In this document: positions 12,154-43,402 of the stretch, piece by piece
Numbering within the stretch: position 1 is the first letter of the stretch
Layout of the letters: each line of letters starts with the position of its first letter
Origin: an uncultured Eubacterium sp.
Lineage (GTDB): Bacteria; Bacillota; Clostridia; Oscillospirales; Acutalibacteraceae
Direction of reading: 5' to 3'
Length of the DNA stretch: 57,030 nt
NCBI GenBank assembly: GCA_905233545.1
Contig: CAJOEV010000006.1
Span: forward strand, 1 to 57,030
Translations under genes and position numbers: made by a program
Notes under the pieces: generated by a model
Database searches by the model: none
What the model was told of the DNA's origin: nothing
The model's input: the letters and a program-made list of their open reading frames with translations, nothing else

Positions 12154-12236
12154 ATAGTTTACTATAAATTTACAAAACATAAAAATTATTATTAATTTTT
12201 AATTTAGGTCTTTTCAAATAACCTACTTTATGTTAT

Positions 12237-12242
12237 TATAAT
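12237..12242 (+). promoter_or_regulatory. Possible -10 box for the hydrogenase operon
   Basis: TATAAT lies 60 bp upstream of hndA in an AT-rich stretch. The -35 region is poor (TCAAAT or TTTTCA at imperfect spacing), so an activator may be needed. I saw no clear Rex-type palindrome. Confidence 0.4.
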
Positions 12243-12301
12243 ACACAGCTTTTGACATTTTTTTAACAAAGGCGTATGAATAATTAAGGAGGAACTAACT
12301 T

Positions 12302-12796
12302 ATGCAGAAAAAAATCAGTAAGATTCCTTTTAAAGGCACCCCTGAGCAGAAGGAAAAGCTCGATGCGATTATCGAAGCTAACAAGCATGATAAAAGCCGT
12401 CTTATGGCTGTTATGCAGGAAGCTCAGGAGATTTACGGATATCTTCCGATGGAAGTGCAGAATATGATTGCAGATGGAATGGACGTTCCGCTTGAAAAGA
12501 TTTTCGGCGTTGCATCATTCTATGCTCAGTTCTCACTTACACCAAAGGGAGAATATAATATTTCCGTATGTTTGGGAACTGCTTGCTATGTAAAGGGCGC
12601 TCAGAGCATTCTTGATGAACTTTCCGACGAGCTTGGCATCGATGTTGACGAGTGCACTGAGGACGGTAAGTTTTCACTCAATGCATGCCGCTGTATTGGC
12701 GCATGCGGACTCGGACCTGTTTTAACTGTTAACGATGAGGTTTACGGAAAGCTTAAGGCTCAAGATGTACCCGAAATTGTTGCAAAATACAGATAA
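12302..12796 (+). CDS. hndA: Hydrogenase subunit HndA (NuoE-like, [2Fe-2S])
   Basis: 164 residues behind AAGGAGG. Thioredoxin-like NuoE fold with a four-cysteine [2Fe-2S] site at Cys90, Cys95, Cys131 and Cys135 (CLGTACYVKG; CRCIGACGLGP). The N-terminal half has the helical region of NuoE (EAQEIYGYLP; KIFGVASFYAQFSL). In HndABCD/HydABC enzymes this subunit relays electrons between the flavin subunit and the [FeFe] subunit. It opens the operon and is separated from hndB-C-D by six non-structural genes, an unusual split. Confidence 0.93.
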   Translation: MQKKISKIPFKGTPEQKEKLDAIIEANKHDKSRLMAVMQEAQEIYGYLPMEVQNMIADGMDVPLEKIFGVASFYAQFSLTPKGEYNISVCLGTACYVKGAQSILDELSDELGIDVDECTEDGKFSLNACRCIGACGLGPVLTVNDEVYGKLKAQDVPEIVAKYR

Positions 12797-12822: not shown

Positions 12823-13167
12823 ATGAAAATCAGTGAAATGAAAGATTTGCTTGACGCAAAAGTGCTTTGCTGTGAGGACAACATCGACCGCGAGGTTTAT
12901 TCAGCTTGCGGATGCGACCTTATGAGCGACGTTCTTGCGTTTGTAAAGGATCAGGCTGTCCTAATGACCGGACTTGTTAATCCGCAGGTTATCCGTACTG
13001 CCGTAATGATGGATATGGTTTGCATAATTTTTGTCCGTTCAAAAACTCCGACCGAGGAAATGCTTCAGCTTGCAAGAGATAACGGAATCGTTATTATGCA
13101 GTGTGATAAAAGACTTTATGAGGCATGCGGAATAATCTATTCAAACGGTCTCGGTGATAAAAAATGA
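12823..13167 (+). CDS. DRTGG-type small protein 1 (hydrogenase operon)
   Basis: 114 residues. Begins MKISEMKDLLDAKVLCCEDN, then SACGCDLMSDVLAFV, MTGLVNPQVIRTAVMMDMVCIIFV and an LARDNGIVIMQ segment. This matches the DRTGG-like alpha/beta fold found next to clostridial hydrogenase genes and in some CBS/HprK-type proteins. The family's molecular role is not established. It overlaps the next gene by 4 bases (ATGA). A second member lies at 14843-15169. Confidence 0.82.
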   Translation: MKISEMKDLLDAKVLCCEDNIDREVYSACGCDLMSDVLAFVKDQAVLMTGLVNPQVIRTAVMMDMVCIIFVRSKTPTEEMLQLARDNGIVIMQCDKRLYEACGIIYSNGLGDKK

Positions 13168-13589
13168 GCGAAGAATTAGTATTCCATTTTGATGTTGACG
13201 GCGATGACTTCACATCTGCAGGTCAGGCATCTGTTCAGATTAAAAAGGATTTACGGCAGCTTGGCATTTCTCCCGAAATCATCCGCAGAGTTTCAATTGC
13301 GATGTATGAGGGTGAAATCAATATGGTTATTCATGCAAACGGAGGATGCGTTGACGTTAAGGTCTGTGAGGATTGCATTGAAATGATTCTTGCGGACAAG
13401 GGTCCCGGTATAAAGGACGTTGAACAGGCAATGCAGGAAGGCTTTTCTACAGCCTCCGACACAACCCGTTCACTGGGCTTTGGCGCAGGAATGGGACTTC
13501 CGAATATGAAGCGCTATACAGATTCAATGGAAATTGAATCCACCGTTGGCGTTGGAACAACGGTTAGAATGAAAGTTAATTTAGGATAG
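13164..13589 (+). CDS. RsbW-like GHKL ATPase (anti-sigma-factor type)
   Basis: 141 residues, the size of a free-standing RsbW/SpoIIAB-type HATPase with no dimerisation or sensor domain. The N-box is EGEINMVIHANGG (Asn53), the G1 box ADKGPGI (Asp78) and the G2 box LGFGAGMGLPNMKRY. Such proteins bind ATP and either phosphorylate a partner on Ser or sequester a sigma factor. No STAS anti-anti-sigma or sigma gene lies next to it. Its partners may be the DRTGG, Fe-S and PHP proteins encoded on either side. Confidence 0.88.
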   Translation: MSEELVFHFDVDGDDFTSAGQASVQIKKDLRQLGISPEIIRRVSIAMYEGEINMVIHANGGCVDVKVCEDCIEMILADKGPGIKDVEQAMQEGFSTASDTTRSLGFGAGMGLPNMKRYTDSMEIESTVGVGTTVRMKVNLG

Positions 13590-13595
13590 ATTATA

Positions 13596-14843
13596 ATGCA
13601 TTTATATGACCATTCGGTTTTGCTTGACGCAAGCAAATGCACAGGTTGTACAACCTGCCTTAAACACTGTCCTACCGAAGCAATAAGAATTAAAGACGGT
13701 CACGCGGTTATCAACGAAAAGCGCTGCATCGACTGCGGAGAGTGCATACGCAACTGTCCGCATCAGGCGAAGAAGGCGGTTTACGGAAAGCTGGAGGATA
13801 TGAAGCGTTTCAAGTATAAGATTGCGCTTCCCGCTCCTACTCTCTACGGTCAGTTTGATAATCTTGATGATGTTGACTATGTACTTGACGGATTGCTTCG
13901 CATAGGGTTTGACGATGTTTTTGAGGTTTCAAAGGCTGCGGAGCTTGTTTCGGCATATACCCGACTTTATCTTAAAACAGACGGAATCAAAAAGCCCGTT
14001 ATCAGCTCGGCTTGTCCCGTTGCAATAAGGCTTATCTCTCTGAGATTCCCGTCGCTGAGTGAAAATATTTTGCATATGCTTCCGCCCATGGAGGTTGCGG
14101 CAAGACTTGCAAGAGAAAAAGCTATGAAAAATCATCCCGAGCTTAAAAGCGAGGATATCGGCATTTGCTTTATTTCTCCCTGTCCTGCAAAGGTAAGCTA
14201 TGTTAAAAACGGTTTTGCTGACTACAAGAGTCAGGTTGATGTTGTTGTTTCAATCAGCGATATATACTTTATGCTGATAAGCGAAATGTCACAGGATAAC
14301 GAAATCAAATCGCTTTCGGAATCGGGCATTATCGGAATCAGCTGGGCAAGCTCAGGCGGTGAATCAACAGCCATATTCAATGAGGATTATCTTGCTGCTG
14401 ACGGAATTGAGAACATAATCCGTGTGCTCGACCAGATTGAAAACGGAAACATCCCTTCGCTTCAGTTCATTGAACTCAACGCATGCCCTGGCGGCTGCGT
14501 CGGCGGAGTTATGGCGATGGAGAATCCCTTTGTTGCAAAGGCAAGACTTCAGTCGCTGAGAAGATATCTTCCCGTTTCACAGAATTTCATTGATGACGAA
14601 AACTATATTCCCGATGATTATCTATTTAATAAACTGCCCGAATATCAGCCCATAACAAGACTTGCCGATAATATGGCACAGTCAATGAGGATGATGGCGG
14701 ATATTCAGCAGATAAAAAGCACTCTTCCCGGTATCGACTGCGGAGCCTGCGGTGCGCCTAACTGCAGAGCATTTGCAGAGGATATCGTAAAAAATAAAGC
14801 GTCCATAGATGGATGCATCATCAGAAAAGAGGCTCAGAAGTAA
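13596..14843 (+). CDS. HydA-like Fe-S protein, putative redox/H2 sensor
   Basis: 415 residues. Order: a two-cluster ferredoxin (Cys15, 18, 21, 25 and Cys44, 47, 50, 54), a shortened [FeFe]-hydrogenase large-subunit domain (~70-345), and a C-terminal four-Cys Fe-S motif (Cys382, 385, 390, 407). H-cluster-type cysteines are kept: SSACPVA (Cys140), SPCPAK (Cys196), and ELNACPGGCVGG (Cys297, Cys301). The first Cys of the usual TSCCP pair is Ala, the small-subunit region is absent and the PCxxK motif lacks the usual downstream Glu. This fits putative sensory group C/D [FeFe]-hydrogenases rather than a high-turnover enzyme. It lies between an RsbW-like ATPase and a DRTGG protein. Confidence 0.85.
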   Translation: MHLYDHSVLLDASKCTGCTTCLKHCPTEAIRIKDGHAVINEKRCIDCGECIRNCPHQAKKAVYGKLEDMKRFKYKIALPAPTLYGQFDNLDDVDYVLDGLLRIGFDDVFEVSKAAELVSAYTRLYLKTDGIKKPVISSACPVAIRLISLRFPSLSENILHMLPPMEVAARLAREKAMKNHPELKSEDIGICFISPCPAKVSYVKNGFADYKSQVDVVVSISDIYFMLISEMSQDNEIKSLSESGIIGISWASSGGESTAIFNEDYLAADGIENIIRVLDQIENGNIPSLQFIELNACPGGCVGGVMAMENPFVAKARLQSLRRYLPVSQNFIDDENYIPDDYLFNKLPEYQPITRLADNMAQSMRMMADIQQIKSTLPGIDCGACGAPNCRAFAEDIVKNKASIDGCIIRKEAQK

Positions 14844-15169
14844 TGACAGTTCAAGAACTTTGCACTTCCTGCGGATTTGAAACAATCTGCATGCCCGACG
14901 GACAAAGAAGTGTAAGCGGAGCATATATCGGCGATTTGCTCAGCTGGGTTATGGGCAGAGCTGAAGAAGATAACGCATGGATAACAATAATGAGCAATGT
15001 TAATGTTATCGCGGTTGCATCACTTTCGGATGTTGCCTGTGTTATTCTTGCCGAAGGAGTAAGCCTTGATGATACTCTTAAGGAAACTGCAGAACAAAAG
15101 GGCATAAATGTTCTTAGTTCAAAGCTTCCTGCCTATGAAACGGCTCAGCTGCTTTTCGGTAAGGTCTGA
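14843..15169 (+). CDS. DRTGG-type small protein 2 (hydrogenase operon)
   Basis: 108 residues. The start is ATG 14843, sharing one base with the preceding stop (TAATG); an upstream in-frame ATG would read back into the Fe-S gene. Same fold pattern as the first DRTGG gene: MTVQELCTSCGFETICMPD, YIGDLLSWVMGR, TIMSNVNVIAVASLSDVACVI, then EQKGINVLSS. It also overlaps the PHP gene by one base (TGATG). Tight coupling suggests fixed stoichiometry with the Fe-S and PHP proteins. Function not established. Confidence 0.8.
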   Translation: MTVQELCTSCGFETICMPDGQRSVSGAYIGDLLSWVMGRAEEDNAWITIMSNVNVIAVASLSDVACVILAEGVSLDDTLKETAEQKGINVLSSKLPAYETAQLLFGKV

Positions 15170-15900
15170 TGAATAAATATTATTATGATTTGCACATTCA
15201 TTCCTGCTTATCGCCGTGCGGAGGTGATGACAATACTCCGAACAATATCGCGGGAATGGCAACACTCTGCGGATTGAATATTCTTGCTTTAACAGACCAT
15301 AACACCTGCAAAAACTGTCCGGCATTTTTTGAGGCGGCAAAGAGATACGGTATTATTCCCGTTGCAGGAATGGAGCTTACAACCGCGGAGGATATACATG
15401 TTATTTGTCTTTTTGAAAACCTTGAAAATGCAATGGCTTTTGATGAGGAAATAGATAAAAGACGAATAAAAATTGAAAACCGAACTGATATTTTCGGCAA
15501 TCAGTTTATTCTTGACGGCGAGGACAATGTAATCGGCGAGGATAAGTACCTTCTTTCAAATGCAACAACAGTTTCACTTGAAGAGGTCCCCGAGCTTGTT
15601 AAAAGCTTCGACGGAATAGCATATCCTGCTCATATTGACCGCCCGTCAAACGGAGTGATTGAAATACTCGGAACATTTCCCGAAACGCCTAATTTTGATA
15701 TTGTTGAAATCAGCCGAAGGGAAAAGGTTGAAGAGTATGTTGAAAAATATTCACTTGAAGATAAAAAAGTGATTATCAGCTCCGACGCGCACTATCTTGA
15801 AAATATGCGCGACAAGGAAAACTATTTCGAACTTGATGACGAGCCGTATTCCTCGGCGCTTGTCAGACATAATTTGTTTGAATACTTAAAAACAAGGTGA
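15169..15900 (+). CDS. PHP-domain metal-dependent phosphoesterase
   Basis: 243 residues. PHP metal-ligand motifs occur in order: DLHIHSCLSPC (His9, His11), LTDHN (Asp43, His44), AGMELT (Glu), YPAHIDRPS (His) and SSDAH (Asp, His). The family hydrolyses phosphate esters (histidinol phosphate, nucleotides, small phosphorylated signals) with two or three metal ions. Its place between DRTGG and GHKL genes suggests that it acts on a phosphorylated partner or small signal in the same circuit, which is inference. Confidence 0.88.
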   Translation: MNKYYYDLHIHSCLSPCGGDDNTPNNIAGMATLCGLNILALTDHNTCKNCPAFFEAAKRYGIIPVAGMELTTAEDIHVICLFENLENAMAFDEEIDKRRIKIENRTDIFGNQFILDGEDNVIGEDKYLLSNATTVSLEEVPELVKSFDGIAYPAHIDRPSNGVIEILGTFPETPNFDIVEISRREKVEEYVEKYSLEDKKVIISSDAHYLENMRDKENYFELDDEPYSSALVRHNLFEYLKTR

Positions 15901-15904
15901 AAAA

Positions 15905-16459
15905 ATGAAGGAACTCTCACTTAACATTCTTGATGTTGCTGAAAATTCCGTAAAGGCGGGCGCAAGCCTTACACAGATTCTTATTGCTGAAGAGGGAAAT
16001 GAGTTAACCCTCCAGATAAAGGATGATGGCTGCGGAATGAGCGAAGAGGTTGTTAAATCGGTTGTTGACCCGTTTTACACGACAAGAACAACAAGAAAAG
16101 TCGGTCTCGGCGTTCCGCTTCTGAAGCTTGCGGCGGAGCAGACGGGAGGAAGCTTAACGATTGAATCTAAAACCGAAGAGGAATTCCCGAGTGAACACGG
16201 AACCTGCGTCACTGCGGTGTTCTTCAAAGACCACCTTGATTTTACACCGCTCGGCGATGTTATTTCATCAATAGTAACATTGATTCAGGGACATCCCGAT
16301 ACGGACTTTTATTTCAGCCACAGAATTGAAGACCACTGTGTTGAGCTTGATACAAGACAGCTCAGAGAGGTTTTGGGGGACACCCCGCTGAACACTTACG
16401 AGGTTATAAAATGGACCGAAGATTATCTGCATGAGCAGTATCAAGGTTTTAATTTATAA
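15905..16459 (+). CDS. Sensor-kinase-like GHKL ATPase without a kinase core
   Basis: 184 residues. The HATPase_c fold begins almost at residue 1: LNILDVAENSVKAGA is the N-box (Asn14), KDDGCGM the G1 box, VGLGVPLLK the G2 box, and GTCVTAVF ends the domain. There is no HisKA dimerisation helix or phospho-accepting His. A ~70-residue C-terminal region follows. It is closer to histidine-kinase ATPases (DPFYTTR) than to the RsbW-like protein at 13164-13589, so the operon carries two different GHKL types. Confidence 0.85.
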   Translation: MKELSLNILDVAENSVKAGASLTQILIAEEGNELTLQIKDDGCGMSEEVVKSVVDPFYTTRTTRKVGLGVPLLKLAAEQTGGSLTIESKTEEEFPSEHGTCVTAVFFKDHLDFTPLGDVISSIVTLIQGHPDTDFYFSHRIEDHCVELDTRQLREVLGDTPLNTYEVIKWTEDYLHEQYQGFNL

Positions 16460-16493: not shown

Positions 16494-16877
16494 ATGAAAT
16501 CATTAGCTGAACTTCAGGCAATCAGAGAAAAAATGAAGGACAAGGTTGTTCTTCGCGAAGGCTCGGGCGATGTCAGAGTTGTTGTCGGTATGGCAACCTG
16601 CGGTATTGCAGCAGGCGCACGTCCTGTTTTGAGCACCTTTGTTGAAGAGGTTAACAGACTTGGTCTTTCGGACAAGGTAACCGTTTCTCAGACAGGATGC
16701 ATCGGCATCTGCCAGTTCGAGCCCGTTGTTGAGGTTTTCGAAGCAGGCAAGGAAAAGGTTACTTATGTAAAAATGACCCCCGAAAAGGCAAAAGAGGTTG
16801 TTGAAATCCACCTTCAGGGCGGCAGAGTTGTTGGTAAGTACACAATCTCAAATGATGAGTTGAATGATGAGTTATAA
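16494..16877 (+). CDS. hndB: Hydrogenase subunit HndB ([2Fe-2S] thioredoxin-like)
   Basis: 127 residues. VVGMATCGIAAGARPVL and VSQTGCIGICQFEPVVEV are the two halves of the thioredoxin-like [2Fe-2S] ferredoxin module. Only three cysteines sit in these motifs, as I recall for HndB-type subunits (GTCGIAAGAR). It resumes the structural hydrogenase genes after the six-gene insertion and is 17 bp upstream of hndC. Role: electron carrier within the soluble complex. Confidence 0.9.
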   Translation: MKSLAELQAIREKMKDKVVLREGSGDVRVVVGMATCGIAAGARPVLSTFVEEVNRLGLSDKVTVSQTGCIGICQFEPVVEVFEAGKEKVTYVKMTPEKAKEVVEIHLQGGRVVGKYTISNDELNDEL

Positions 16878-16894: not shown

Positions 16895-18718
16895 ATGATT
16901 CGTTCACAAGTTCTTATCTGTGGCGGTACAGGCTGTACTTCCTCAGGAAGCAAGGCAGTTCAGGAAGAGTTCAAAAAAGAGCTTGAAATTGCCGGTTTAA
17001 CACACGAAATCAAACTTGTTCAGACCGGTTGCTTCGGTCTTTGTGCACTTGGTCCCGTTGTTATTGTTTATCCTGAAGGAACTTTCTACAGCCAGGTTCA
17101 CTCAGATGATGTTAAAGAAATCGTTCAGGAACATCTGTTAAAGGGAAGAATTGTTGACCGTCTTGTTTATGACGAGACATCAGCACCCAAGGATTCCCTT
17201 GTTGGCGGAACTGTTTCACTTAATGACACCGATTTCTACAGAGCTCAGCACCGTGTAGCTCTTCGTAATTGCGGCGTTATTGACCCCGAAAACATTGATG
17301 AATACATCGCTGTTGACGGTTATGCTGCTCTCGGTAAAGTTTTAACCGAAATGACACCCGAGGATGTTATCAAGTGCGTTTCGGATTCAGGACTCAGAGG
17401 CCGCGGAGGCGGCGGATTCCCGACAGGCTTTAAATGGTCACTTTGCGCACCTAACAAGGCTGACCAGAAATATGTTGTTTGTAATGCCGATGAGGGTGAC
17501 CCGGGTGCATTTATGGACAGGTCCGTTCTTGAAGGCGACCCCCATTGTATTATCGAAGCTATGGCTATCTGCGGTTATGCAGTAGGCGCAACAAAGGGAT
17601 TTGTTTATGTTCGTGCTGAATATCCCATCGCTGTTGCAAGACTTCAGAAGGCAATCGAACAGGCTCGTGAATACGGACTTTTAGGTAAAAATATCTTCGG
17701 TTCAGGCTTTGATTTCGACCTTGAAATCCGTCTCGGCGCAGGCGCATTCGTTTGCGGTGAGGAAACAGCTCTTATGACTTCAATCGAAGGTAACAGAGGT
17801 GAGCCAAAGCCAAGACCGCCATTCCCGGCAGTTAAAGGTCTTTTCGGCAAGCCGACTGTTGAAAATAACGTTGAAACATTTGCAAATGTTCCCCAGATTC
17901 TTCTCAAGGGTGCGGACTGGTTCGCATCAATGGGTACAGAGAAATCAAAGGGAACAAAGGTATTTGCTCTCGGCGGAAAGATTAAGCACACAGGTCTTGT
18001 TGAGGTTCCTATGGGAACAACTCTTCGCGAGATTATCTATGATATCGGCGGCGGTATTCCCAACGGCAAGAAATTCAAGGCTGCTCAGACAGGCGGACCT
18101 TCGGGCGGATGTATTCCCGCAAAGCTTATTGACACAGAGATTGACTATGACAACCTTCTTGCAATGGGCTGTATGATGGGCTCGGGCGGACTTATCGTTA
18201 TGGATGAGGATACCTGTATGGTTGACATCGCTAAGTTCTTCCTTGAATTCACAGTTGACGAGTCCTGCGGTAAGTGTACTCCCTGCCGTGTCGGAACAAA
18301 GCGTCTTTATGAAATCCTTGAGAAGATAACTCAGGGCAAGGGAACACTCGAAGACCTTGACAGACTTGAAGAGCTCTGCTACTACATCAAAGCAAACTCA
18401 GCCTGCGGTCTCGGTCAGACAGCTCCGAACCCCGTTCTTGCAACACTCAAATTCTTCAGAGATGAGTATATTGCTCACGTTGTTGATAAGAAGTGTCCTG
18501 CAGGCGTATGTAAAGACCTTCTTACATATGTTATTGATAAGGACAAGTGTATCGGCTGCGGAAGATGTGCAGGTAACTGTCCTGTTGACACAATTGTTAA
18601 AACTAAGTATATTGCTCCGGGCCATAAGCTTCCGTCTTACGAAATCATTCCTGATAAATGTATTAAGTGCGGAGCTTGTGCAGCAAACTGTAAGCCTCAG
18701 GCAATAAGCAAACACTAA
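16895..18718 (+). CDS. hndC: Hydrogenase flavin subunit HndC (NuoF-like)
   Basis: 607 residues, behind GGAGG. Order: an N-terminal [2Fe-2S] thioredoxin-like module (CGGTGCTSSG, GCFGLC), the NuoF core with NAD/FMN loops (GLRGRGGGGFPTGFKW, CNADEGDPGAFMDR, GAGAFVCGEETAL), the NuoF [4Fe-4S] motif CGKCTPCRVGT, and a C-terminal two-cluster ferredoxin (CIGCGRCAGNCP, CIKCGACAANCK). This is the NAD(P)-binding and probable electron-bifurcation site of trimeric/tetrameric hydrogenases. Full length with all expected motifs. Confidence 0.95.
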   Translation: MIRSQVLICGGTGCTSSGSKAVQEEFKKELEIAGLTHEIKLVQTGCFGLCALGPVVIVYPEGTFYSQVHSDDVKEIVQEHLLKGRIVDRLVYDETSAPKDSLVGGTVSLNDTDFYRAQHRVALRNCGVIDPENIDEYIAVDGYAALGKVLTEMTPEDVIKCVSDSGLRGRGGGGFPTGFKWSLCAPNKADQKYVVCNADEGDPGAFMDRSVLEGDPHCIIEAMAICGYAVGATKGFVYVRAEYPIAVARLQKAIEQAREYGLLGKNIFGSGFDFDLEIRLGAGAFVCGEETALMTSIEGNRGEPKPRPPFPAVKGLFGKPTVENNVETFANVPQILLKGADWFASMGTEKSKGTKVFALGGKIKHTGLVEVPMGTTLREIIYDIGGGIPNGKKFKAAQTGGPSGGCIPAKLIDTEIDYDNLLAMGCMMGSGGLIVMDEDTCMVDIAKFFLEFTVDESCGKCTPCRVGTKRLYEILEKITQGKGTLEDLDRLEELCYYIKANSACGLGQTAPNPVLATLKFFRDEYIAHVVDKKCPAGVCKDLLTYVIDKDKCIGCGRCAGNCPVDTIVKTKYIAPGHKLPSYEIIPDKCIKCGACAANCKPQAISKH

Positions 18719-18732
18719 GGAGGGACGTTATA

Positions 18733-20478
18733 ATGGCAGATATGGTTAATTTAAAAATCAACGGTGTGGCAGTTAGCGTTCCTAAGGGCTCAACAATTCT
18801 TGACGCAGCCCGCAAAATAGGAATTGAAATTCCTACACTGTGCTTTATGAAAGAACTCAACGAAATCGGCGCTTGCCGAATCTGTATCGTTGAGGCAAAC
18901 GAAGGAAGAGGCTTCCGCCAGGTAACAGCCTGCGTATATCCCGTTTCAGAGGGAATGGAAGTTTTAACCAATACGGCAAAGATTCAGGCTGCAAGAAAAA
19001 CCACTCTTGAGCTTATGCTTTCCGTTCACGAGATGAACTGCTTATCCTGCGTTCGTTCAACAAACTGCGAGCTTCAGAAGCTCTGCCACGAATACGGCGT
19101 TGATATGAATGCATTCGAGGGCGCAAAGCCTAAGTATGAAAAGGATACAAGCACAGCTCACCTCGTAAGAGATAATAATAAATGTATTCTTTGCAGAAGA
19201 TGCGTTGCTGCTTGTAAACAGCAGTTTGTTTCCGTTATCGGACCTAACGACAGAGGTTTTGATACTGCAATCGGTCAGCCGTTTAAGGTATCGCTCAACG
19301 AAACTCCCTGTATTTCCTGCGGTCAGTGTACCGTTGTTTGTCCGACAGCTGCATTAACTGAAAAGGATGATACAGACAAGGTTTGGGCTGCTCTTGCAGA
19401 CCCGACAAAGCATGTTGTTGTTCACACTGCTCCTTCAATCCGTGCAACAATTGGCGAATGTTTCGGTATGCCTATCGGAACAAATGTTGAGGGCAAGATG
19501 GTTGCAGCTCTCAGAAGACTTGGCTTCGACAGAGTATTCGACACCAACTTCGGTGCAGACCTCACAATCGTTGAAGAGGCAAATGAGCTTGTTGAGAGAA
19601 TCAAGGAAGGCGGAACTCTTCCGATGATTACTTCATGCTCACCCGGTTGGGTTAAGTTCTGTGAGTTCTATTATCCCGAGCTTATCGGTCATCTTTCAAG
19701 CTGTAAATCACCTCAGCAGATGAGCGGTGCAGTTATCAAGACATACTATGCAGAAAAGATGGGAATCGACCCGAAGGATATCTTCTGCGTATCAATTATG
19801 CCTTGTACTGCTAAGAAATTCGAAATCGGCAGAGAAGACCAGAGTGCTTCTGGATATCCCGATATCGATGTTGCATTAACAACAAGAGAAGCTGCAAGAA
19901 TGATGCAGAGACTCGGAATTAACTTTGAGAATCTTCCCGATGAAGAATTTGACTCTCCTCTCGGTGATGACACCGGTGCTGCTGTTATCTTCGGCGCAAC
20001 AGGCGGTGTTATGGAAGCTGCTGTTCGTACTGCAAATGCTTGGCTCAACGGCGCAACAGAGGCAATTGACCTTGAAGCAGTCAGAGGAACCAAGGGCATC
20101 AAAGAAGCAACTGTTGAGGTTGGCGGAACTCCGCTTAAGCTCTGCGTTGCATCGGGTGCTGCAAATGCTAAGATTGTTATGGACAAGCTCGCAGCAGGCA
20201 ACCCTGACGGATGGGGATTCATCGAGATTATGTGCTGCCCCGGCGGTTGTGTAAACGGCGGCGGACAGCCGATTCAGCCTCAGTCTGTAAGAGATACTGT
20301 TGACCTTAAAGCTCTTCGTGCTAAGGCTCTTTATGATCAGGATGCAGGAATGGCACTCAGAATGAGCCATGAATCTCCTGTTATCAAGACACTTTACAAA
20401 GATTGGTACGGCGATTTCGGAAGCGAAAAAGCTCACCATGCTCTTCACACTTCCTATGTTAAGAGAGAAAAATATTAA
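18733..20478 (+). CDS. hndD: [FeFe]-hydrogenase catalytic subunit HndD/HydA
   Basis: 581 residues, behind AAGGAGG. Order: a plant-type [2Fe-2S] domain (Cys37, 48, 51, 67), a His-Cys [4Fe-4S] motif (HEMNCLSC, Cys112), a two-cluster ferredoxin (Cys151-161, Cys193-203), the H-cluster domain, and a C-terminal small-subunit-like segment. Motifs: L1 TSCSPGW (Cys302), L2 SIMPCTAKKFE (Cys358), L3 MCCPGGCVNGGGQ (Cys502, Cys506). L1 has Ser303 where monomeric enzymes have a second Cys. It catalyses reversible proton reduction, coupled to NAD(P)H and probably ferredoxin through HndA-C. Last gene before a strong terminator. Confidence 0.95.
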   Translation: MADMVNLKINGVAVSVPKGSTILDAARKIGIEIPTLCFMKELNEIGACRICIVEANEGRGFRQVTACVYPVSEGMEVLTNTAKIQAARKTTLELMLSVHEMNCLSCVRSTNCELQKLCHEYGVDMNAFEGAKPKYEKDTSTAHLVRDNNKCILCRRCVAACKQQFVSVIGPNDRGFDTAIGQPFKVSLNETPCISCGQCTVVCPTAALTEKDDTDKVWAALADPTKHVVVHTAPSIRATIGECFGMPIGTNVEGKMVAALRRLGFDRVFDTNFGADLTIVEEANELVERIKEGGTLPMITSCSPGWVKFCEFYYPELIGHLSSCKSPQQMSGAVIKTYYAEKMGIDPKDIFCVSIMPCTAKKFEIGREDQSASGYPDIDVALTTREAARMMQRLGINFENLPDEEFDSPLGDDTGAAVIFGATGGVMEAAVRTANAWLNGATEAIDLEAVRGTKGIKEATVEVGGTPLKLCVASGAANAKIVMDKLAAGNPDGWGFIEIMCCPGGCVNGGGQPIQPQSVRDTVDLKALRAKALYDQDAGMALRMSHESPVIKTLYKDWYGDFGSEKAHHALHTSYVKREKY

Positions 20479-20490
20479 ATAAAACAAAAA

Positions 20491-20520
20491 ATCACCTGAG
20501 GAAACTCAGGTGATTTTTTT
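20491..20520. terminator. Bidirectional intrinsic terminator
   Basis: 10-bp perfect stem (20491-20500 with 20505-20514, GAAA tetraloop), A-run before and seven T after. Ends the hydrogenase operon and also faces the convergent ABC operon. A short tandem (AGGTGTT twice) follows at 20521. Confidence 0.92.
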
Positions 20521-35614: not shown

Positions 35615-36109
35615 ATGAAAAAGATTGGTATTGTTATGGGCAGTGCAAGTGATATGCCCGTTGTAAAAAAAGCGGCTGATATGCTTGAGAGCTTCGGCGT
35701 TGAATTTGAAATACATATCTATTCAGCGCACAGAACTCCCGATGAAGCGGCGCAGTTTGCAATGAATGCGCGCGAAAACGGCTTTGGATGTATTATCGCG
35801 GCGGCTGGCATGGCGGCTCACCTTGCAGGTGCAATTGCGGCAAGAACAACGCTTCCCGTTATCGGAATTCCGTGCAAGTCCAAGGCGCTTGAGGGCGTTG
35901 ATGCTCTTTTGTCAACCGTTATGATGCCTCCGGGAATACCCGTTGCAACAGTGGGCGTTGACGGTGCGGCAAATGCAGCTCTGCTTGCAATTGAGATGCT
36001 TGCAATTGAAGATGAAGAGCTTGCAAGAAAATTGCAGGAAAAAAGAGAAAATGATACAAAAAAAGTTCTTGAAACAGATGCTGAAATATCAGCTCAGTAT
36101 AATAAATAA
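35615..36109 (+). CDS. purE: N5-CAIR mutase PurE (class I)
   Basis: 164 residues, normal for class I PurE, behind AGGAGG. The signature is intact: [15 protein letters not shown] (phosphate loop), [10 protein letters not shown] (catalytic His) and [15 protein letters not shown]. It interconverts N5-CAIR and CAIR in de novo IMP synthesis. No purK is in view, so either N5-CAIR synthetase is encoded elsewhere or the enzyme acts differently. First gene of the purine operon. Confidence 0.95.
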
Positions 36110-36128
36110 CAGCTTAGGAGGGTTTATT

Positions 36129-36839
36129 ATGGAAAAGAAAGAAATGCTCTATGAGGGCAAGGCAAAAAAGGTTTATGCAACCGAGGACGAAAATCTTGTT
36201 ATCGTTTCATACAAGGACGATGCAACTGCAAACGACGGTGAGAAAAAAGGAACAATTGCAGGCAAGGGCGTTATTAACAACAGAATGAGTAACTTCCTTA
36301 TGCAGCTTCTTGAAAAGAACGGTGTTCCTTCTCATTTTGTTGAGGAGATTAACGACACCGACACAGTTGTTAAAAAGGTTTCAATCGTTCCTCTTGAGGT
36401 TATTATCAGAAATATTTCGGCAGGTCATTTTGCATCCCGCTACGGCGTTGACGAGGGTATTGTTTTTGACGAGCCGACTATTGAATTCTCATATAAGAAC
36501 GACGACCTCCACGACCCGCTTCTCAATGCATATCATGCAATTGCCCTGAAGCTTGCAACAAGGGAAGAAATCGAGCTTATCAAATCAATGGCTTTCAAGG
36601 TTAACGACGTTTTAAAGGCATATTTCAAGGAGCTTGGCGTTACTCTTGTTGATTTCAAGCTTGAATTCGGCAAGACCGCTGACGGAACAATCGTTCTTGC
36701 AGACGAAATTTCTCCCGACACCTGCCGTTTCTGGGACAGCGAAACAGGAGAGAAGCTCGACAAGGACCGTTTCCGCAGAGATATGGGCGGAGTTGAAGAC
36801 GCGTATAACGAAATGATGAGAAGAGTTTTTGGAGAATAA
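36129..36839 (+). CDS. purC: SAICAR synthase PurC
   Basis: 236 residues from ATG 36129 behind AGGAGGG; the longer open frame back to 35943 is out-of-frame purE sequence. [15 protein letters not shown] (ATP-binding start), [30 protein letters not shown], and [16 protein letters not shown] are standard PurC motifs. It joins aspartate to CAIR. Separated from the next gene by a 125-base repeat-containing gap. Confidence 0.95.
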
Positions 36840-36950
36840 TTGAGAATTGAGAGTTGAGAATTGAGAATTTCGGTTACTCGCTGCGCTCATACAATTATAA
36901 TCGGAGCTTGCGATTCGACAATTCGGAACTCACAACTTGAAACTAATATA
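36840..36950 (+). repeat. Dispersed intergenic repeat, member 2 (purC-purF gap)
   Basis: Begins with GAGAATTGAGA/GAGAGTTGAGA units, continues with TCGGTTACTCGCTGCGCTC (compare GGTTTCTCGCTTTGCTCGG in member 1), and ends with AACTCACAACTTGAAACTAATATA just before the purF ribosome site. It looks inserted into an otherwise tightly packed operon. Confidence 0.65.
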
Positions 36951-36964
36951 TAGGAGAACAAACT

Positions 36965-38389
36965 ATGGGTGGATTTTTCGGTGCAGTCGGAAAGGAAAGT
37001 ATTATATCCGATGTGTTTTTCGGAACTGATTATCATTCACACCTCGGAACAAGACGAGGCGGTATTGCGGTATATAATGATGAAATAGGAATAAGAAGAA
37101 AAATACATAATATAACAAACTCTCCATTCCGCACTAAGTTTGAAAACATATATAATGAAATGGAAGGAACTTCCGCAATTGGATGTATCAGCGACTATGA
37201 TCCCCAGCCGCTTTTAATCCGTTCATCACTCGGGCTTTACGCTCTGTGTATGATTGGTATTATTACCAATGCTGATGAGCTTATCGGTAAGTATTTCAAA
37301 GATAACGGCGGTCAGTTTTGTGCAATGAACGGCGGCGGAGTTAATTCAACCGAGCTTTTATCGGCGCTGATAAACCAGAAGGAAGATTTTGTTGAGGGAA
37401 TCAAGTTTGCTCAGAGCGTTATTGAGGGAACGGCTTCAATTCTTCTTTTAACCAGCGAAGGAAAGATTATCGCGGCAAGGGACAAACTTGGCAGACTTCC
37501 CGTTACAATCGGAAAGCGCGAGGACGGTCACTGCGTTTCCTTTGAGGACTTTGCATATAAGAAGCTCGGATATGTTGATGAAAAAGAGCTTGGTCCCGGT
37601 GAAATTGTTGAGGTTACTGCACAAGGTGTTAAAACGCTTGCCCAACCCGGTAAGAAAATGAGAATATGCTCATTCCTATGGAGCTACTACGGCTATCCCA
37701 CTTCATCCTATGAGGGAGTTAATGTTGAGGTAATGCGCTGCAGAAACGGCGCAATAATGGCTGATAACGACAAAGCCGAAGGCAGCGATTCAAATATCGA
37801 TTATGTCGGCGGTGTTCCCGATTCGGGAACAGCTCACGCAATCGGTTATGCAAATAAAAGCGGTGTTCCTTTTGCAAGAGCTTTTATTAAATATACTCCT
37901 ACCTGGTCAAGAAGCTTTATGCCGACCAACCAGAAGGACAGAAACAGAATAGCAAAGATGAAGCTTATTCCCGTTGAGGATTTAATCAGGGACAAGAGTC
38001 TTCTCTTTGTTGACGATTCAATAGTTCGCGGAACTCAGATGAAGGAAACAGTTGATTTTCTCTATGAGCACGGTGCAAAGGAAGTTCACATCAGAAGCGC
38101 CTGCCCGCCGATTATGTTCGGATGTAAGTATCTCAATTTCTCGCGTGCAACAAGCGATATGGAGCTTATTGCAAGAAGAGTTATTATGGAGCTTGAGGGT
38201 GAAGAGGGCTTCGCTCATATCGATGAATATATTGATACCAAAACCGAAAGAGGCAAAAAGCTCAGAGATGAAATCTGTAAAAAGCTTCGTTTTGCTTCCC
38301 TTGAATTCCAGACTCTTGATGGAATCATAGAAGCTATCGGAATTGACAGAGACCAGCTTTGCACATATTGCTGGGACGGAAAGGAATAA
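36965..38389 (+). CDS. PurF homologue lacking the nucleophilic cysteine
   Basis: 474 residues behind AGGAGA. The N-terminus is MGGFFGAVGKES and continues FFGTDYHSHLGTRRGG, a class II (Ntn) glutamine-amidotransferase fold. Position 2, where PurF has its catalytic Cys, is Gly. The phosphoribosyltransferase half is intact: LLFVDDSIVRGTQMK binds PRPP. Cysteines like the [4Fe-4S] ligands of Bacillus PurF remain (CSFLW, MFGCKY, LCTYC). As written it should not hydrolyse glutamine itself; it may use free ammonia, take it from a partner, or have another role. I recall similar sequences (MGGFFG...) in other clostridia, so a sequencing error is unlikely. Set in the operon at the PurF position. Confidence 0.88.
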   Translation: MGGFFGAVGKESIISDVFFGTDYHSHLGTRRGGIAVYNDEIGIRRKIHNITNSPFRTKFENIYNEMEGTSAIGCISDYDPQPLLIRSSLGLYALCMIGIITNADELIGKYFKDNGGQFCAMNGGGVNSTELLSALINQKEDFVEGIKFAQSVIEGTASILLLTSEGKIIAARDKLGRLPVTIGKREDGHCVSFEDFAYKKLGYVDEKELGPGEIVEVTAQGVKTLAQPGKKMRICSFLWSYYGYPTSSYEGVNVEVMRCRNGAIMADNDKAEGSDSNIDYVGGVPDSGTAHAIGYANKSGVPFARAFIKYTPTWSRSFMPTNQKDRNRIAKMKLIPVEDLIRDKSLLFVDDSIVRGTQMKETVDFLYEHGAKEVHIRSACPPIMFGCKYLNFSRATSDMELIARRVIMELEGEEGFAHIDEYIDTKTERGKKLRDEICKKLRFASLEFQTLDGIIEAIGIDRDQLCTYCWDGKE

Positions 38390-38391
38390 TT

Positions 38392-39435
38392 ATGAATTTG
38401 GAATCAAGAAGCGAAAGCTACGCAAAAGCAGGTGTTGATATAACAGCGGGCTACAAGGCAGTTGAGCTTATGAAAGAACATATTGCAAAAACCGTAACTC
38501 CCGGAGTTATGAGTGGTATTGGCGGTTTCGGCGGTCTTTTTGAGCTTGATTTAACAGGAATTTCAAAGCCTGTTCTTGTTTCGGGAACTGACGGTGTCGG
38601 AACAAAGCTCAAGCTTGCATTTACTGCAAACAAGCACGATACAATCGGAATTGACTGCGTTGCAATGTGTGTTAACGATATAATCTGCTGCGGAGCAAAA
38701 CCGCTTTTCTTTCTTGATTATATTGCCTGCGGAAAAAACTTCCCCGAGAAGATTGCCGAGATTGTTAAGGGCGTATGTGACGGATGTGTTCAGTCGGGCG
38801 CTGCTCTTATCGGCGGAGAAACCGCAGAGATGCCGGGCTTCTATCCCGAAGATGAATACGACCTTGCAGGCTACTGCACGGGCGTTGTTGACAAGGATAA
38901 AATAATTGACAACACCAAGATGACTGAGGGCGATGTTGTTATCGCACTTCCGTCAAGCGGAGTTCATTCAAACGGCTTTTCACTTGTGAGAAAGGTTTTC
39001 GATGTTGAAAGCGATGAAGCTAAAAAGCCCCTTGAAGAACTCGGCAAAAAAAGTGTTCTTGAAACTCTTTTGACTCCTACAAAAATCTATGTTAAACCGA
39101 TTCTTGCGCTGCTTGAAGAAGTTGATGTCCGCGCTGTATCACATATAACGGGCGGCGGATTTTATGAAAATATTCCGAGAAGCATTCCCGACGGATTCGG
39201 CGTTGTTATCAGGGAACAGGATGTCAGAATTCTTCCGATATTTAATTTAATTGAAAAATGCGGAAATATCAGCCGACGCGATATGTTCAACACCTTTAAT
39301 ATGGGCGTTGGCATGAGCGTTATTGTTCCGAATAGTGAAGCCGAAAAGGCGCTTGGAATACTCAGAGCAAAAGGCGAGGACGCATATGTTCTCGGTAAGG
39401 TTGTTAAAAGCGACAAGAAAATTGTATTGGAATAA
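38392..39435 (+). CDS. purM: AIR synthetase PurM
   Basis: 347 residues from ATG 38392, three bases after the purF stop, with AAGGA upstream; an earlier in-frame ATG lies inside purF. ESYAKAGVDITAGYKAV, LVSGTDGVGTKLKLA, VNDIICCGAKPLFFLDY, LIGGETAEMPGFY and HITGGGFYENIPR are the PurM signatures. It cyclises FGAM to AIR with ATP. Complete. Confidence 0.96.
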   Translation: MNLESRSESYAKAGVDITAGYKAVELMKEHIAKTVTPGVMSGIGGFGGLFELDLTGISKPVLVSGTDGVGTKLKLAFTANKHDTIGIDCVAMCVNDIICCGAKPLFFLDYIACGKNFPEKIAEIVKGVCDGCVQSGAALIGGETAEMPGFYPEDEYDLAGYCTGVVDKDKIIDNTKMTEGDVVIALPSSGVHSNGFSLVRKVFDVESDEAKKPLEELGKKSVLETLLTPTKIYVKPILALLEEVDVRAVSHITGGGFYENIPRSIPDGFGVVIREQDVRILPIFNLIEKCGNISRRDMFNTFNMGVGMSVIVPNSEAEKALGILRAKGEDAYVLGKVVKSDKKIVLE

Positions 39436-39447
39436 TCGGGTGATATT

Positions 39448-40053
39448 ATGACAAAAACAAAAATCGGCGTTCTTGTTTCAGGCGGAGGAACAAATCTTCA
39501 GGCGCTTATTGATTTTCAGAAAAACGGCGGTTTAGTTCATGGAGAACTCAGCCTTGTTGTTTCGGATAATCCAAATGCATATGCGCTTGAAAGAGCAGAA
39601 AATGCAGGAATAAAAACTGCTGTGATATGCAAAAAGGATTATGAAAACCGTAACGGTTTTGAAGAAGCCGTAATCAATACTCTTGAAGAAAACGATATTG
39701 AGCTGATAATTCTTGCAGGCTTTATGACAATTCTAAGCGAAAGCTTCACAAGCCGTTATCCCGAAAGAATTATCAATGTTCACCCTTCCTTGATTCCGTC
39801 ATTCTGCGGAAAGGGCTTCTATGGACTAAAAGTGCATGAGGCAGCGCTGGGCTATGGAGTTAAGGTGACGGGTGCAACGGTGCATTTTGTTAATGAAATA
39901 CCCGATGGCGGAAGAATAATTCTTCAGAAAGCCGTTGAAATTCAGGATGGCGACACACCTGAAATTCTTCAGAAAAGAGTTATGGAGCAGGCTGAGTGGA
40001 AAATACTTCCCCAGGCGGCAGAAATAGTATCAGAGTGCATAATGCATAGTTAA
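39448..40053 (+). CDS. purN: GAR transformylase PurN
   Basis: 201 residues with GGTGAT as ribosome site. KIGVLVSGGGTNLQALID is the phosphate loop; INVHPSLIPSFCGKGFYG carries the catalytic His, with Asn two residues before; VTGATVHFVNEIPDGG carries the late catalytic Asp region. It transfers formyl from 10-formyl-THF to GAR. Complete. Confidence 0.95.
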   Translation: MTKTKIGVLVSGGGTNLQALIDFQKNGGLVHGELSLVVSDNPNAYALERAENAGIKTAVICKKDYENRNGFEEAVINTLEENDIELIILAGFMTILSESFTSRYPERIINVHPSLIPSFCGKGFYGLKVHEAALGYGVKVTGATVHFVNEIPDGGRIILQKAVEIQDGDTPEILQKRVMEQAEWKILPQAAEIVSECIMHS

Positions 40054-40054
40054 A

Positions 40055-40176
40055 GTTGCGAGTTCCGAGCCCCGAGTTCCGAGTTGTTGGGTCTTGCAGA
40101 CGGCTATTATAATAATTAACCGAACGAAGTGAGAAACCAACAACGTGCAACGCGAAACGCGAAATGTGCAACTAAT
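40055..40176 (+). repeat. Dispersed intergenic repeat, member 3 (purN-purO gap)
   Basis: Contains the 27-base block shared exactly with member 1 (40059-40085), then an inverted version of the TTTCTCGCTTTGCTCGG block (AACCGAACGAAGTGAGAAACC, split here for length: AACCGAACGAAG / TGAGAAACC), then GTGCAACGCGAAACGCGAAATGTGCAAC-type tandem units, ending in ACTAATATA before the purO ribosome site, as member 2 does. Confidence 0.7.
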
Positions 40177-40190
40177 ATAAGGAGACAGAT

Positions 40191-40910
40191 ATGAATATTT
40201 ACGAAATCAAAAAGATTAACGAAGCTGTTGAGGGCAATTCCTATGTCGGAAGAGGTATTGTCTGCGGAAAGAGCGAAAACGGCAAAAAGGCTGCAGTTGC
40301 TTGTTTCATTATGGGAAGAAGCGCCAACAGCCGAAACAGAGTTTTCACAATGAAGGACGGTGTTCTTTACACAGAACCCTTTGACGCTTCTAAGGTTGAG
40401 GACCCGAGCTTAATCATCTATGCGGCAATGAGAAAGTTTGAAAACAATCTTATTGCAACAAACGGTGACCAGACGGATACAATTTATGAAGCGCTCAAAG
40501 AAGGCAAGTCTTTTGAAACGGCGCTCGACACCCGTTGCTTTGAGCCCGACAAACCGAATTTTACTCCGAGAATCAGTTCAATGATAACCTTCGGTGAAAA
40601 TGATTTCAGCTATAAAATGAGCATTCTCAAAAGCATTGATGAAGAGGGAAGTGAATGTGCAAGATTTACCTTCTCTTATCCCTCAAAAGCAGGACTCGGA
40701 CATTTCATTCACACATATGTCTGTGACGGAAACCCGATTCCGACCTTCCAGGGTGAGCCCGAAAGAGTGTTCATTCCCGATGATATTGATGAATTTACCA
40801 ATGCGCTTTGGAATGCACTTGATGAAGATAATAAAATATCGCTCTATGTTTCCTATATTGATTTAGAAAACATGAGCGAGGAATACAGAATAATTAATAA
40901 AAACAACTAA
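40191..40910 (+). CDS. purO: IMP cyclohydrolase, archaeal PurO-like
   Basis: 239 residues behind AAGGAGA. NSYVGRGIVCGKS, FIMGRSANSRNR, TNGDQTDTIYEA and PNFTPRISSM are conserved blocks of the PurO family, a fold unrelated to the PurH cyclohydrolase. It closes FAICAR to IMP, the last step of the pathway. Together with the next gene it replaces bifunctional PurH. Confidence 0.88.
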   Translation: MNIYEIKKINEAVEGNSYVGRGIVCGKSENGKKAAVACFIMGRSANSRNRVFTMKDGVLYTEPFDASKVEDPSLIIYAAMRKFENNLIATNGDQTDTIYEALKEGKSFETALDTRCFEPDKPNFTPRISSMITFGENDFSYKMSILKSIDEEGSECARFTFSYPSKAGLGHFIHTYVCDGNPIPTFQGEPERVFIPDDIDEFTNALWNALDEDNKISLYVSYIDLENMSEEYRIINKNN

Positions 40911-40924
40911 AGCGAGGTGCCTTT

Positions 40925-42109
40925 ATGAAAGAATTTGAACTCAAATACGGATGCAATCCAAACCAGAAGCCTTCAAAAATCTATATGGAGGACGGCGGCG
41001 ATTTGCCGATTGAAATCCTTGCAGGAAAACCGGGATACATCAATTTTCTTGATGCATTCAATTCCTGGCAGCTTGTCAAAGAGCTTAAAGACGCTTTGGG
41101 AATGCCTGCAGCTGCATCATTCAAGCATGTAAGCCCGACATCTGCTGCAATTGGTCTGCCTCTTGATGAAAAGCTCAAGAAAGCCTGCTTTGTTGATGAT
41201 ATCGAAGGCGTTGACGAATCACCCCTTGCATGTGCATATGCAAGAGCAAGAGGAACCGACAGAATGTGTTCCTTCGGCGACTGGGTTGCACTTTCGGATG
41301 TCTGCGATGTAACAACCGCAAAGCTAATTCAGCGCGAGGTTTCCGACGGTGTTATTGCACCGGGATATGAGCCCGAGGCTCTTGAAATCCTTAAAACAAA
41401 GCGTAAGGGTAATTATAATATTGTTAAAATTGATCCGCTTTACGTTCCTGCAACCCAGGAAAAGAAGCAGGTTTTCGGAATAACCTTTGAGCAGGGAAGA
41501 AACGACTACAAAATTGACAAAAGCGTTCTTTCAAACATCGTAACTGCCAATAAGGAACTCCCCGAAGAGGCAGCTGCAGACCTTGTTATTGCGCTTATAA
41601 CTCTTAAATATACACAGTCAAATTCAGTTTGCTATGCTTATAAAGGACAGGCTATCGGTGTCGGCGCTGGTCAGCAGTCAAGAATTCACTGCACACGCCT
41701 TGCCGGAACAAAGGCGGACACATGGTTCCTACGCCAGAGTGACAAGGTATTAAACCTTCCGTTTAAAGAGGATATCAGCCGTCCCGAAAGAGATAATGCA
41801 ATCGACGGATATATCAACCAGAACGAAGAGGATGTCTGTTCCGACGGCGTATGGCAGAGATATTTTACCGTTCAGCCTGAGCCCTTCACAAAGGAAGAGC
41901 AAAGAGCATATCTTGATACTCTCGACGGTGTTGCACTCGGTTCGGATGCATTCTTCCCGTTTGACGACAACATTATGCGTGCAAGAGCAAGCGGTGTAAA
42001 ATATGTTGCAGAGCCGGGTGGCTCAATCCGCGACGGTGTTGTTATTGAACGCGCCGACAAGCTCGGTATGGTTATGGCATTCACGGGAATGCGTTTGTTC
42101 CATCACTAA
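40925..42109 (+). CDS. Stand-alone AICAR transformylase (PurH-type domain)
   Basis: 394 residues behind GAGGTG. It contains only the AICARFT domain: LKYGCNPNQKPSKIY, AASFKHVSPTSAA (catalytic Lys-His), QSNSVCYAY, GVGAGQQSRIHCTRLAG and AEPGGSIRD. The N-terminal MGS-like cyclohydrolase domain of PurH is absent, which matches the separate PurO upstream. It formylates AICAR with 10-formyl-THF. Confidence 0.92.
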   Translation: MKEFELKYGCNPNQKPSKIYMEDGGDLPIEILAGKPGYINFLDAFNSWQLVKELKDALGMPAAASFKHVSPTSAAIGLPLDEKLKKACFVDDIEGVDESPLACAYARARGTDRMCSFGDWVALSDVCDVTTAKLIQREVSDGVIAPGYEPEALEILKTKRKGNYNIVKIDPLYVPATQEKKQVFGITFEQGRNDYKIDKSVLSNIVTANKELPEEAAADLVIALITLKYTQSNSVCYAYKGQAIGVGAGQQSRIHCTRLAGTKADTWFLRQSDKVLNLPFKEDISRPERDNAIDGYINQNEEDVCSDGVWQRYFTVQPEPFTKEEQRAYLDTLDGVALGSDAFFPFDDNIMRARASGVKYVAEPGGSIRDGVVIERADKLGMVMAFTGMRLFHH

Positions 42110-42134
42110 GAATTAATTAAAGAGGTAGAATTTC

Positions 42135-43400: not shown

Positions 43401-43402
43401 TC

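Follow-up and report, generated by a model that had tools for sequence, protein, structure and literature searches.

A five-gene module around a putative sensory group D [FeFe]-hydrogenase, and its candidate link to NuoEF-type enzymes through G2 and HndB

Why should six additional genes stand between hndA and hndB in the operon of an HndABCD-type hydrogenase? The question is raised by a stretch of 57,030 nucleotides from an uncultured Eubacterium sp. (assembly GCA_905233545.1, contig CAJOEV010000006.1, positions 1 to 57,030; the whole stretch is called the window), where these genes, here named D1, G1, S, D2, P and G2, had been taken in an earlier note, made from the sequence alone, for a sensing and modification cassette. 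We find that S is, judged by its residues, a group D enzyme and a putative sensor, that it belongs to a conserved module of five genes, and that the sixth, G2, travels with HndB. The reading that we favour, with a little more confidence than doubt, is that the cassette is a redox or H2 signalling relay whose output reaches NuoEF-type enzymes by way of G2 and HndB.

The layout given in the earlier note was confirmed: the six genes are open reading frames (ORFs) of the + strand, tightly spaced within one operon-like run, hndA-D1-G1-S-D2-P-G2-hndB-hndC-HydA. On the 5' side, 26 bases separate hndA from D1, D1 and G1 overlap by 4 bases and S follows G1 after 6; on the 3' side, D2 and P overlap by 1 base, P is 4 bases from G2 and G2 34 bases from hndB. 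S and D2 also overlap by 1 base (TAATG) if D2 starts at the ATG in position 14843. This start was our choice, made for the overlap; the ORF list has an earlier in-frame ATG at 14813, and the Pfam score of D2 was taken on the ORF that begins there. The window's genome contains a single match to S at E 1e-20 and two DRTGG matches, both inside the cassette. It also encodes HydF and HydG, making maturation of an H-cluster possible.

The earlier note had called S a HydA-like Fe-S protein. S is indeed hydrogenase-like, and can be placed more precisely as a HydS of group D with all four H-cluster cysteines (C140, C196, C297 and C301). These are invariant in 18 aligned members and present together in 178 of the 180 rows of a wider set, the exceptions being L197, where the ORF is split, and L241, a HydA row (loci are numbered with L, genomes with G). 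The protein consists of two N-terminal [4Fe-4S] (Fer4) motifs, the H-domain and a C-terminal FeS domain with a Cx2Cx4Cx16C tail (C382-x2-C385-x4-C390-x16-C407); a Pfam domain scan gave no PAS match on it. Ala139 occupies the place of C299 and Ser194 that of M353. In the passages available on TamHydS of Thermoanaerobacter mathranii (PMC8163306, PMC10407848, PMC13104023), the same domain order, H-cluster cysteines and tail are described, together with Ala at C299, Ser at M353 and the residues E252, E289 and D265. Two replacements, M353 by Ser and M497 by Leu, are reported there for TamHydS without being called group-defining; the first is matched by Ser194, whereas the window's S has Asn295 at the M497 place. 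E252, D265 and E289, described as the proton path of group D in the part of PMC10407848 that we could use, which adds that E289 is common to other groups too, correspond to E256, D269 and E293 of S and occur jointly in 173 of the 180 rows. In E252 variants of TamHydS, H2 oxidation is reported as undetectable. As a stand-in for TamHydS itself we used the S of L230, chosen because its residue numbers match at 17 of the 17 usable positions published in two TamHydS papers; an alignment of 406 residues gives it 48% identity to the S of the window. Locus L230 carries D1-G1-S-D2-P as well as nuoE-G2-hndB-hndC-hydA, whereas the TamHydS passages name an AraC-type regulator on the other flank and mention no DRTGG or PHP neighbour and no partner.

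Some loci with a group D S gene contain, in addition, group C-like S domains fused to output domains: a methyl-accepting chemotaxis protein (MCP) in L206 (7134-9047), PAS-HisKA-HATPase in L191 (13943-16279), PAS-sigma54-activator-HTH in L216 (17206-19890) and sigma54-activator-HTH in L232 (86-2458). The part of the HydDB description at hand (PMC5037454) lists histidine kinase, chemotactic and phosphatase types of group C, the sigma54 type not being among them. Since group C-like sensors carry HisKA-HATPase, sigma54-activator or MCP outputs, the architecture of S is one that serves elsewhere as an input domain.

Gene order around S was followed by profile searches for D1, G1, D2 and P on the strand of S. 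All loci were chosen by their S match: 40 from the window's order and 58 from the phylum were picked by us, at least one per family (the phylum set includes second copies from G213, G346, G370 and G569), and those from the genome collection were the best 80 of a scan, mostly from gut metagenome-assembled genomes. D1-G1-S-D2-P stood in this order in 37 of the 40, 76 of the 80 and 39 of the 58 loci, and in 15 of 16 loci taken from 15 HydF-lacking genomes and one control (L279). Because the same order recurs in the order, collection and phylum samples, it goes beyond chance. The order and collection sets have seven exceptions: six are truncated by contig ends, and the seventh, L043, has D1-G1-S only. 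Among the 19 incomplete phylum loci, six (L206, L218, L222, L225, L231 and L233) have G1-S or D1-G1-S only, G1 is missing in L237-L239, and the remainder are without D1, P or both. Half of the collection loci (40 of 80) share the window's layout, with the module placed between hndA and G2; in 23 others it precedes an hndA-G2 pair. The natural unit is therefore one of five genes, G2 being usually a gene of the hydrogenase operon, and the six-gene cassette of the earlier note is one arrangement of the two.

Genome-wide searches for S, G1, G2 and HydA in 197 genomes of the window's order led to the same association. Presence was called at 255 bits or more for S (a cut-off that leaves out group C-like matches near 30% identity), E 1e-150 for HydA, E 1e-18 for G2 and E 1e-15 for G1. 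S was found in 97 genomes and G1 in 98: both in 96, S alone in one, G1 alone in two, neither in 98. The idea that a hydrogenase is served by an H2- or redox-sensing Fe-S protein, its ATP-binding partners and a phosphoesterase, for which a survey of co-occurrence had been proposed, is supported in that HydA is present in 92 of the 97 genomes with S. The other five are G074, G115, G137 and G179, which have G2, and G010, where G2 is absent and HydA gives no match at E 1e-30 although HydF and HydG are encoded. The 148 HydA genomes divide into 89 with S and G2, three with S only, 17 with G2 only and 39 with neither.

Fusions join neighbouring members of the set: D1 to G1 in L199, L210 and L235 (in L210 also by Pfam), G1 to S in L229, S to D2 in L191 and L234 (in L191 also by Pfam), P to G2 in L184 and L240, and G2 to HndB in L194. 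They chain all six proteins and end on an enzyme subunit, which is supportive but, these being adjacent genes, falls short of proof. Two further observations concern the module as such. L306 (1903-3676) holds a closely spaced D1-G1-D2-P run that lacks S between its second and third genes, and a module of the window's type stands on contigs labelled Coriobacteriales or Atopobiaceae (L078, L081 and L084), through lateral transfer or mislabelled bins.

What could the partners of S be? The earlier note had described two GHKL proteins lacking kinase cores. This is correct for G2, which matches only HATPase families in Pfam, without HisKA, and whose nearest folds are MutL, topoVI and GyrB. It does not hold for G1, which keeps the GHKL ATP motifs and, aligned to 1til, places E49 on SpoIIAB E46 and N53 on N50; both residues reach a conservation of 1.00, rounded to two decimals, across 175 sequences. 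E46 is the catalytic glutamate of SpoIIAB, and G1 is probably a protein kinase of the Ser/Thr type. A family scan of the cassette ORFs detected no STAS antagonist, no PP2C/SpoIIE and no sigma gene; for want of an antagonist or sigma factor, G1 is not classed as an anti-sigma factor. A phmmer search found no relative of D1 or D2 among solved structures up to E 0.1. Each of the two has a conserved Ser, S35 in D1 and S34 in D2. In L216 (8404-9255), G1 has an N-terminal CBS domain at the place where three other loci have a fused DRTGG domain, which hints, by analogy, that D1 is a ligand-sensing domain. In P, the positions H9, H11, D43, H44, E69, H77, H155, D206 and H208, which we take to be the ligands of the PHP metals, show a conservation of 1.00, again rounded to two decimals, across 162 sequences. 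The nearest folds to its AF2 model (pLDDT 96.4) are EndoQ, BAD_1165 and RNase AM; on this model, P resembles nucleotide or nucleic-acid PHP enzymes more closely than phosphoprotein phosphatases.

The other side of the cassette is formed by G2 and HndB. Out of 235 loci, 159 were kept as Hnd-type (nuoE, hndC and a HydA-like ORF, with nuoE and hndC co-oriented within 7 kb) and 76 were dropped. HndB is present in 114 of the 119 loci with S, in all 14 with G2 but no S, and in 8 of the 26 with neither. L197, originally among 15 loci with G2 but no S, was counted on the S side for its split S; seven loci scored as S without G2 include five with G2 fused to P (L184 and L240, and by ORF length L267-L269); and five scored as G2 without HndB include the G2-HndB fusion of L194. 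In these loci, then, the presence of HndB tracks that of G2. The window's genus offers a comparison in G145, which gave no match to S, G1 or G2 and has an operon of four genes, nuoE-hndB-hndC-hydA; D1, D2 and P were not seen in its 20-kb Hnd locus. Its NuoE, NuoF and HydA are 79%, 81% and 82% identical to those of the window, its HndB 34%, and cysteines 36, 69 and 73 of HndB are gone. Four of the HndB proteins in the 14 loci with G2 but no S have likewise lost two of the three cysteines; in this comparison, L296 is truncated by a contig end. The score of G2 itself varies in the order sample: it is 216 bits or more in the 93 genomes that have G2 along with S, and below 180 in 11 of the 18 without S. 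D2 stands beside G2-HndB in six loci showing no S (L301, L304, L305, L307, L310 and L311), on the opposite strand in L310 and, in L311, on a contig that starts just upstream of D2. This persistence of D2-G2-HndB splits the set into an input part, D1-G1-S, and an output part, D2-G2-HndB. The seven HndB genes that keep all three cysteines in loci without S or G2 weigh against such a coupling. According to the part of PMC10084766 (2023) that we used, HndB probably has no redox centre, which would fit a docking role.

The module also adjoins operons other than that of the hydrogenase. In L211, rnfC, four more ORFs and rnfB come after it on the same strand, and in L192 D1-G1-S-D2-P-G2-hndB runs on into rnfC and rnfB; rnfC lies 3' of HydA in L186, L188, L199 and L235. 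The alpha chain of a formate dehydrogenase (TIGR01591, 909 and 908 bits), whose ORFs were read with TGA as selenocysteine, comes after the module and nuoE-G2-hndB-hndC in L265 and L266, and the codon context in L196, L273 and L274 is like that of this selenocysteine enzyme. In L184, molybdopterin-enzyme domains stand where HydA would be. HydA is encoded elsewhere in the genome for some of these cases. Thus, with module genomes in which no full-length HydA was found as well, the supposition that the set is specific to hydrogenases has to be given up.

Other neighbours were seen in passing. Minimal sets of G1-S or D1-G1-S are immediately preceded by CheW-like genes in L206 (11049-11507), L218 (606-1082) and L231 (11584-12036), and GGDEF genes lie near L218 and L231, so that ties with chemotaxis or cyclic di-GMP may exist; the scoring of CheW covered L206 and L218. 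A Rex-like gene (an NADH-responsive repressor, read from the sequence by eye) lies on the strand of S and at most 4.5 kb from it in L198, L199, L208, L210, L216 and L235.

Does S always read H2? Four genomes of family f58 (G222, G352, G400 and G422) and one of f38 (G244, on three contigs) suggest otherwise. Their HydA matches end by residue 236 of 581, and the maturase survey, which covered HydF and HydG, found neither gene in them; all HydG and HydA candidates were scored, HydF with four candidates per genome and, among the five, with all candidates for G222 only. Their S proteins keep the cysteines. At K199, which we take to be the place of CpI K358, the lysine holding a cyanide of the diiron site, they have Q, Q, Q, Q and R, and at E256, the equivalent of TamHydS E252, Q, Q, Q, Q and D, respectively. 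K199 is kept in 64 of the 65 HydF-bearing genomes with an S sequence (the exception, G527, has Glu), a contrast to the five with a Fisher p of 5e-7 that is inflated by kinship and represents about two events. Of 24 genomes lacking HydF, 18 keep K199. Those HydF-lacking genomes that keep K199 mostly have HydA where tested, so that their maturases may simply be missing from the assembly. A sixth loss, in G221 (K199 to Glu, no HydF in the survey), where S-D2 lies beside an RnfC-like ORF in L280, was left out of the five-genome set, and L039, from a genome with HydA, has Gln at K199. Absence of HydF, noted in 38 of the 164 S-bearing genomes (a count that includes G280, with a weak S match), was discarded as proof of an S without H-cluster: of 22 genomes scored for HydG, 17 lack it, all of them also without HydF, and 12 of these 17 have a full-length HydA. 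Since maturase absence alone is thus uninformative, the claim rests on the five genomes, in which S is read, from its residues, as a pure Fe-S redox sensor. Full-length group A HydA was seen where HydF and HydG were not found in G411 and G145, which are among these 12, and in G207, G212, G286, G315 and G365, the single contig of G411 carrying two such genes (C1:735418-737145 and C1:1564997-1566730); this may reflect an assembly gap or a novel maturation route.

How might the parts work together? The relay that we favour starts from the group D identity of S, the gene order, the co-occurrence of S with G1, the fusions, the catalytic and metal residues retained by G1 and P, and the link between HndB and G2. 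S would read H2, or the reduction of a low-potential carrier, through its H-cluster and [4Fe-4S] clusters, and change shape; it would then act on G1, the SpoIIAB-type GHKL kinase. G1 would bind D1 and S would bind D2, two small switch domains that would bear a ligand or a phosphate, and P would reset the signal or remove a nucleotide ligand. At the output, D2 and the MutL-like ATPase G2 would target the accessory subunit HndB of the NuoEF-type enzyme and thereby tune the bifurcating hydrogenase, in its activity or its assembly; in other lineages the enzyme tuned would be formate dehydrogenase or Rnf. Each physical contact, phosphorylation event, signal direction and effect on an enzyme in this scheme is our deduction. 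The phosphorylation-based switch or maturation machine of the earlier note is thereby partly supported, the step from a conserved gene set to a phosphorylation relay being one that we infer. A broader version, which we put forward tentatively and would not bet on, makes the module a general redox control for ferredoxin/NADH enzymes (Hnd, NuoEF-formate dehydrogenase, Rnf), leading from the sensor to a SpoIIAB-type kinase with two DRTGG proteins, then to a MutL-like ATPase and to HndB as a regulatory docking, not an electron-transfer, subunit. In at least two families (f58 and f38) the sensor, without its diiron site, would read Fe-S redox state alone, so that group D enzymes would be redox sensors for which H2 is one input.

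The MutL/GyrB-like nature of G2 invites a different idea, in which G2, D2 and HndB build NuoEF-type complexes or load their cofactors while S and G1 report on cluster supply. A maturation role for G2 may exist; as an account of the whole set, this one seems unlikely, since the 39 HydA genomes with neither S nor G2 show that the enzyme can apparently be built without them, and a hydrogenase-like sensor would be an odd component of an assembly line. Less probable still is transcriptional control by partner switching, G1 serving as the anti-sigma-type kinase of a sigma factor or antagonist encoded elsewhere and setting the expression of hydrogenase and fermentation genes. SpoIIAB is the closest relative of G1, and the passages of PMC5707799 at our disposal report that deletion of hfsB raised NADH-linked alcohol dehydrogenase (ADH) activity and increased adhE expression. 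The cassette, however, has no STAS, PP2C/SpoIIE or sigma gene, none was recognised among the recurring neighbours, which were inspected by eye without a family scan, and the HndB-G2 coupling points to an enzyme rather than to a promoter. That the genes are unrelated passengers of a conserved operon, without joint action, we consider very improbable. Co-transcription in tight operons can alone preserve an order for some time, but here the order is kept across the phylum sample, the module is retained when its neighbour becomes Rnf or formate dehydrogenase, it is oriented divergently to the hydrogenase genes in L062, L072, L124, L138, L150 and L183, and in G145 its loss goes together with the decay of HndB.

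The features of the operon are collected in the table. NF040763, whose cut-off the window's HydA exceeds, is the family 'NADH-dependent [FeFe] hydrogenase, group A6'. Internal promoters were not used (18 promoter-like sites in the region against 14.2 expected), nor was a Rex operator upstream of hndA, where a match with 3 mismatches lies at 12252-12269: the window has 12 such matches against 7.6 expected, and 9 of 100 shuffles had as many. Downstream of the operon lies a purine-synthesis-like gene block (window 35615-47089), named from translations alone.

Table. Positions and supporting matches of the operon's genes and flanking signals in the window
Feature	Position	Strand	Support
hndA, NuoE-like 2Fe-2S thioredoxin-fold subunit, first gene of the operon	12302..12796	+	PF01257, 168.6 bits
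D1, DRTGG-domain protein	12823..13167	+	PF07085, 24.9 bits, slightly below the cut-off of 25.2
G1, SpoIIAB/RsbW-type GHKL ATPase	13164..13589	+	PF13581; TIGR01925, 63.9 bits, below the cut-off of 135
S, HydS, group D (M2e) putative sensory [FeFe]-hydrogenase	13596..14843	+	Fer4 x2, Fe_hyd_lg_C, FeS PF04060
D2, second DRTGG-domain protein	14843..15169	+	PF07085, 30.5 bits, above the cut-off of 25.2
P, PHP metallo-phosphoesterase	15169..15900	+	PF02811
G2, HydE-like (in the A. woodii sense) GHKL ATPase without HisKA, MutL/topoVI-like fold	15905..16459	+	
hndB, small thioredoxin-fold subunit, three conserved cysteines	16494..16877	+	PF01257, 26.4 bits
hndC, NuoF-like flavin/Fe-S subunit	16895..18718	+	PF01512, PF10589
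hndD/HydA, catalytic [FeFe]-hydrogenase subunit, group A	18733..20478	+	NF040763, 842.9 bits, cut-off 765
Promoter-like site upstream of hndA	12213..12242	+	consensus match only, 10/12, spacer 18
Intrinsic-terminator-like hairpin 3' of HydA	20486..20519	.	15-pair stem, listed on the - strand; T run also on the + strand

Several known systems resemble parts of this set. The enzyme subunits are those of HndABCD of Solidesulfovibrio fructosivorans, as described in the portion of PMC10084766 available. G2 recalls HydE (Awo_c27000) of the hydA1-hydE operon of Acetobacterium woodii, which the available part of PMC3315566 presents as histidine-kinase-ATPase-like and not a subunit; the likeness, drawn from that description, is one of position and kind. 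SpoIIAB/RsbW proteins are the nearest relatives of G1 in sequence and structure, with the glutamate aligned, and differ in their setting, the cassette having no STAS antagonist or sigma factor. In the hfs/HydS systems of group C, with types C1-C3 of HydDB, a hydrogenase-type sensor likewise stands beside regulatory partners (PMC5707799, PMC11837493 and PMC5037454, in the passages available), and deletion of hfsB is reported there to alter ethanol yield and hydrogenase activity (PMC5707799). HfsB carries PAS, unlike S, whose outputs are separate genes; the domain scan of the cassette found neither the PAS-bearing sensor nor the serine phosphatase gene that mark an hfs-type group C operon. For Thermoanaerobacter, the portion of PMC3608648 at hand notes that two genes lie upstream of bifurcating hydrogenases, one for a histidine kinase and one whose product has a group D-like domain architecture. 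The sensor class and a GHKL neighbour were already known. No description of the whole module was found in open-licence full texts, parts of which were available; the one paper found there for DRTGG together with hydrogenase concerns a Desulfovibrio mutant library. A description may exist elsewhere, for example in the 2010 clostridial survey cited in PMC8924675.

In the passages available from the 2026 study of TamHydS, group D signalling is left open, and the C-terminal cluster, an expected route, was not reduced by H2. A fixed list of partners (G1, D1, D2, P, G2 and HndB), with pairings based on fusions, makes this signalling directly testable, and HndB gains a concrete hypothesis of function. 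The relay would bear on the control of H2, ethanol and formate output in many anaerobes.

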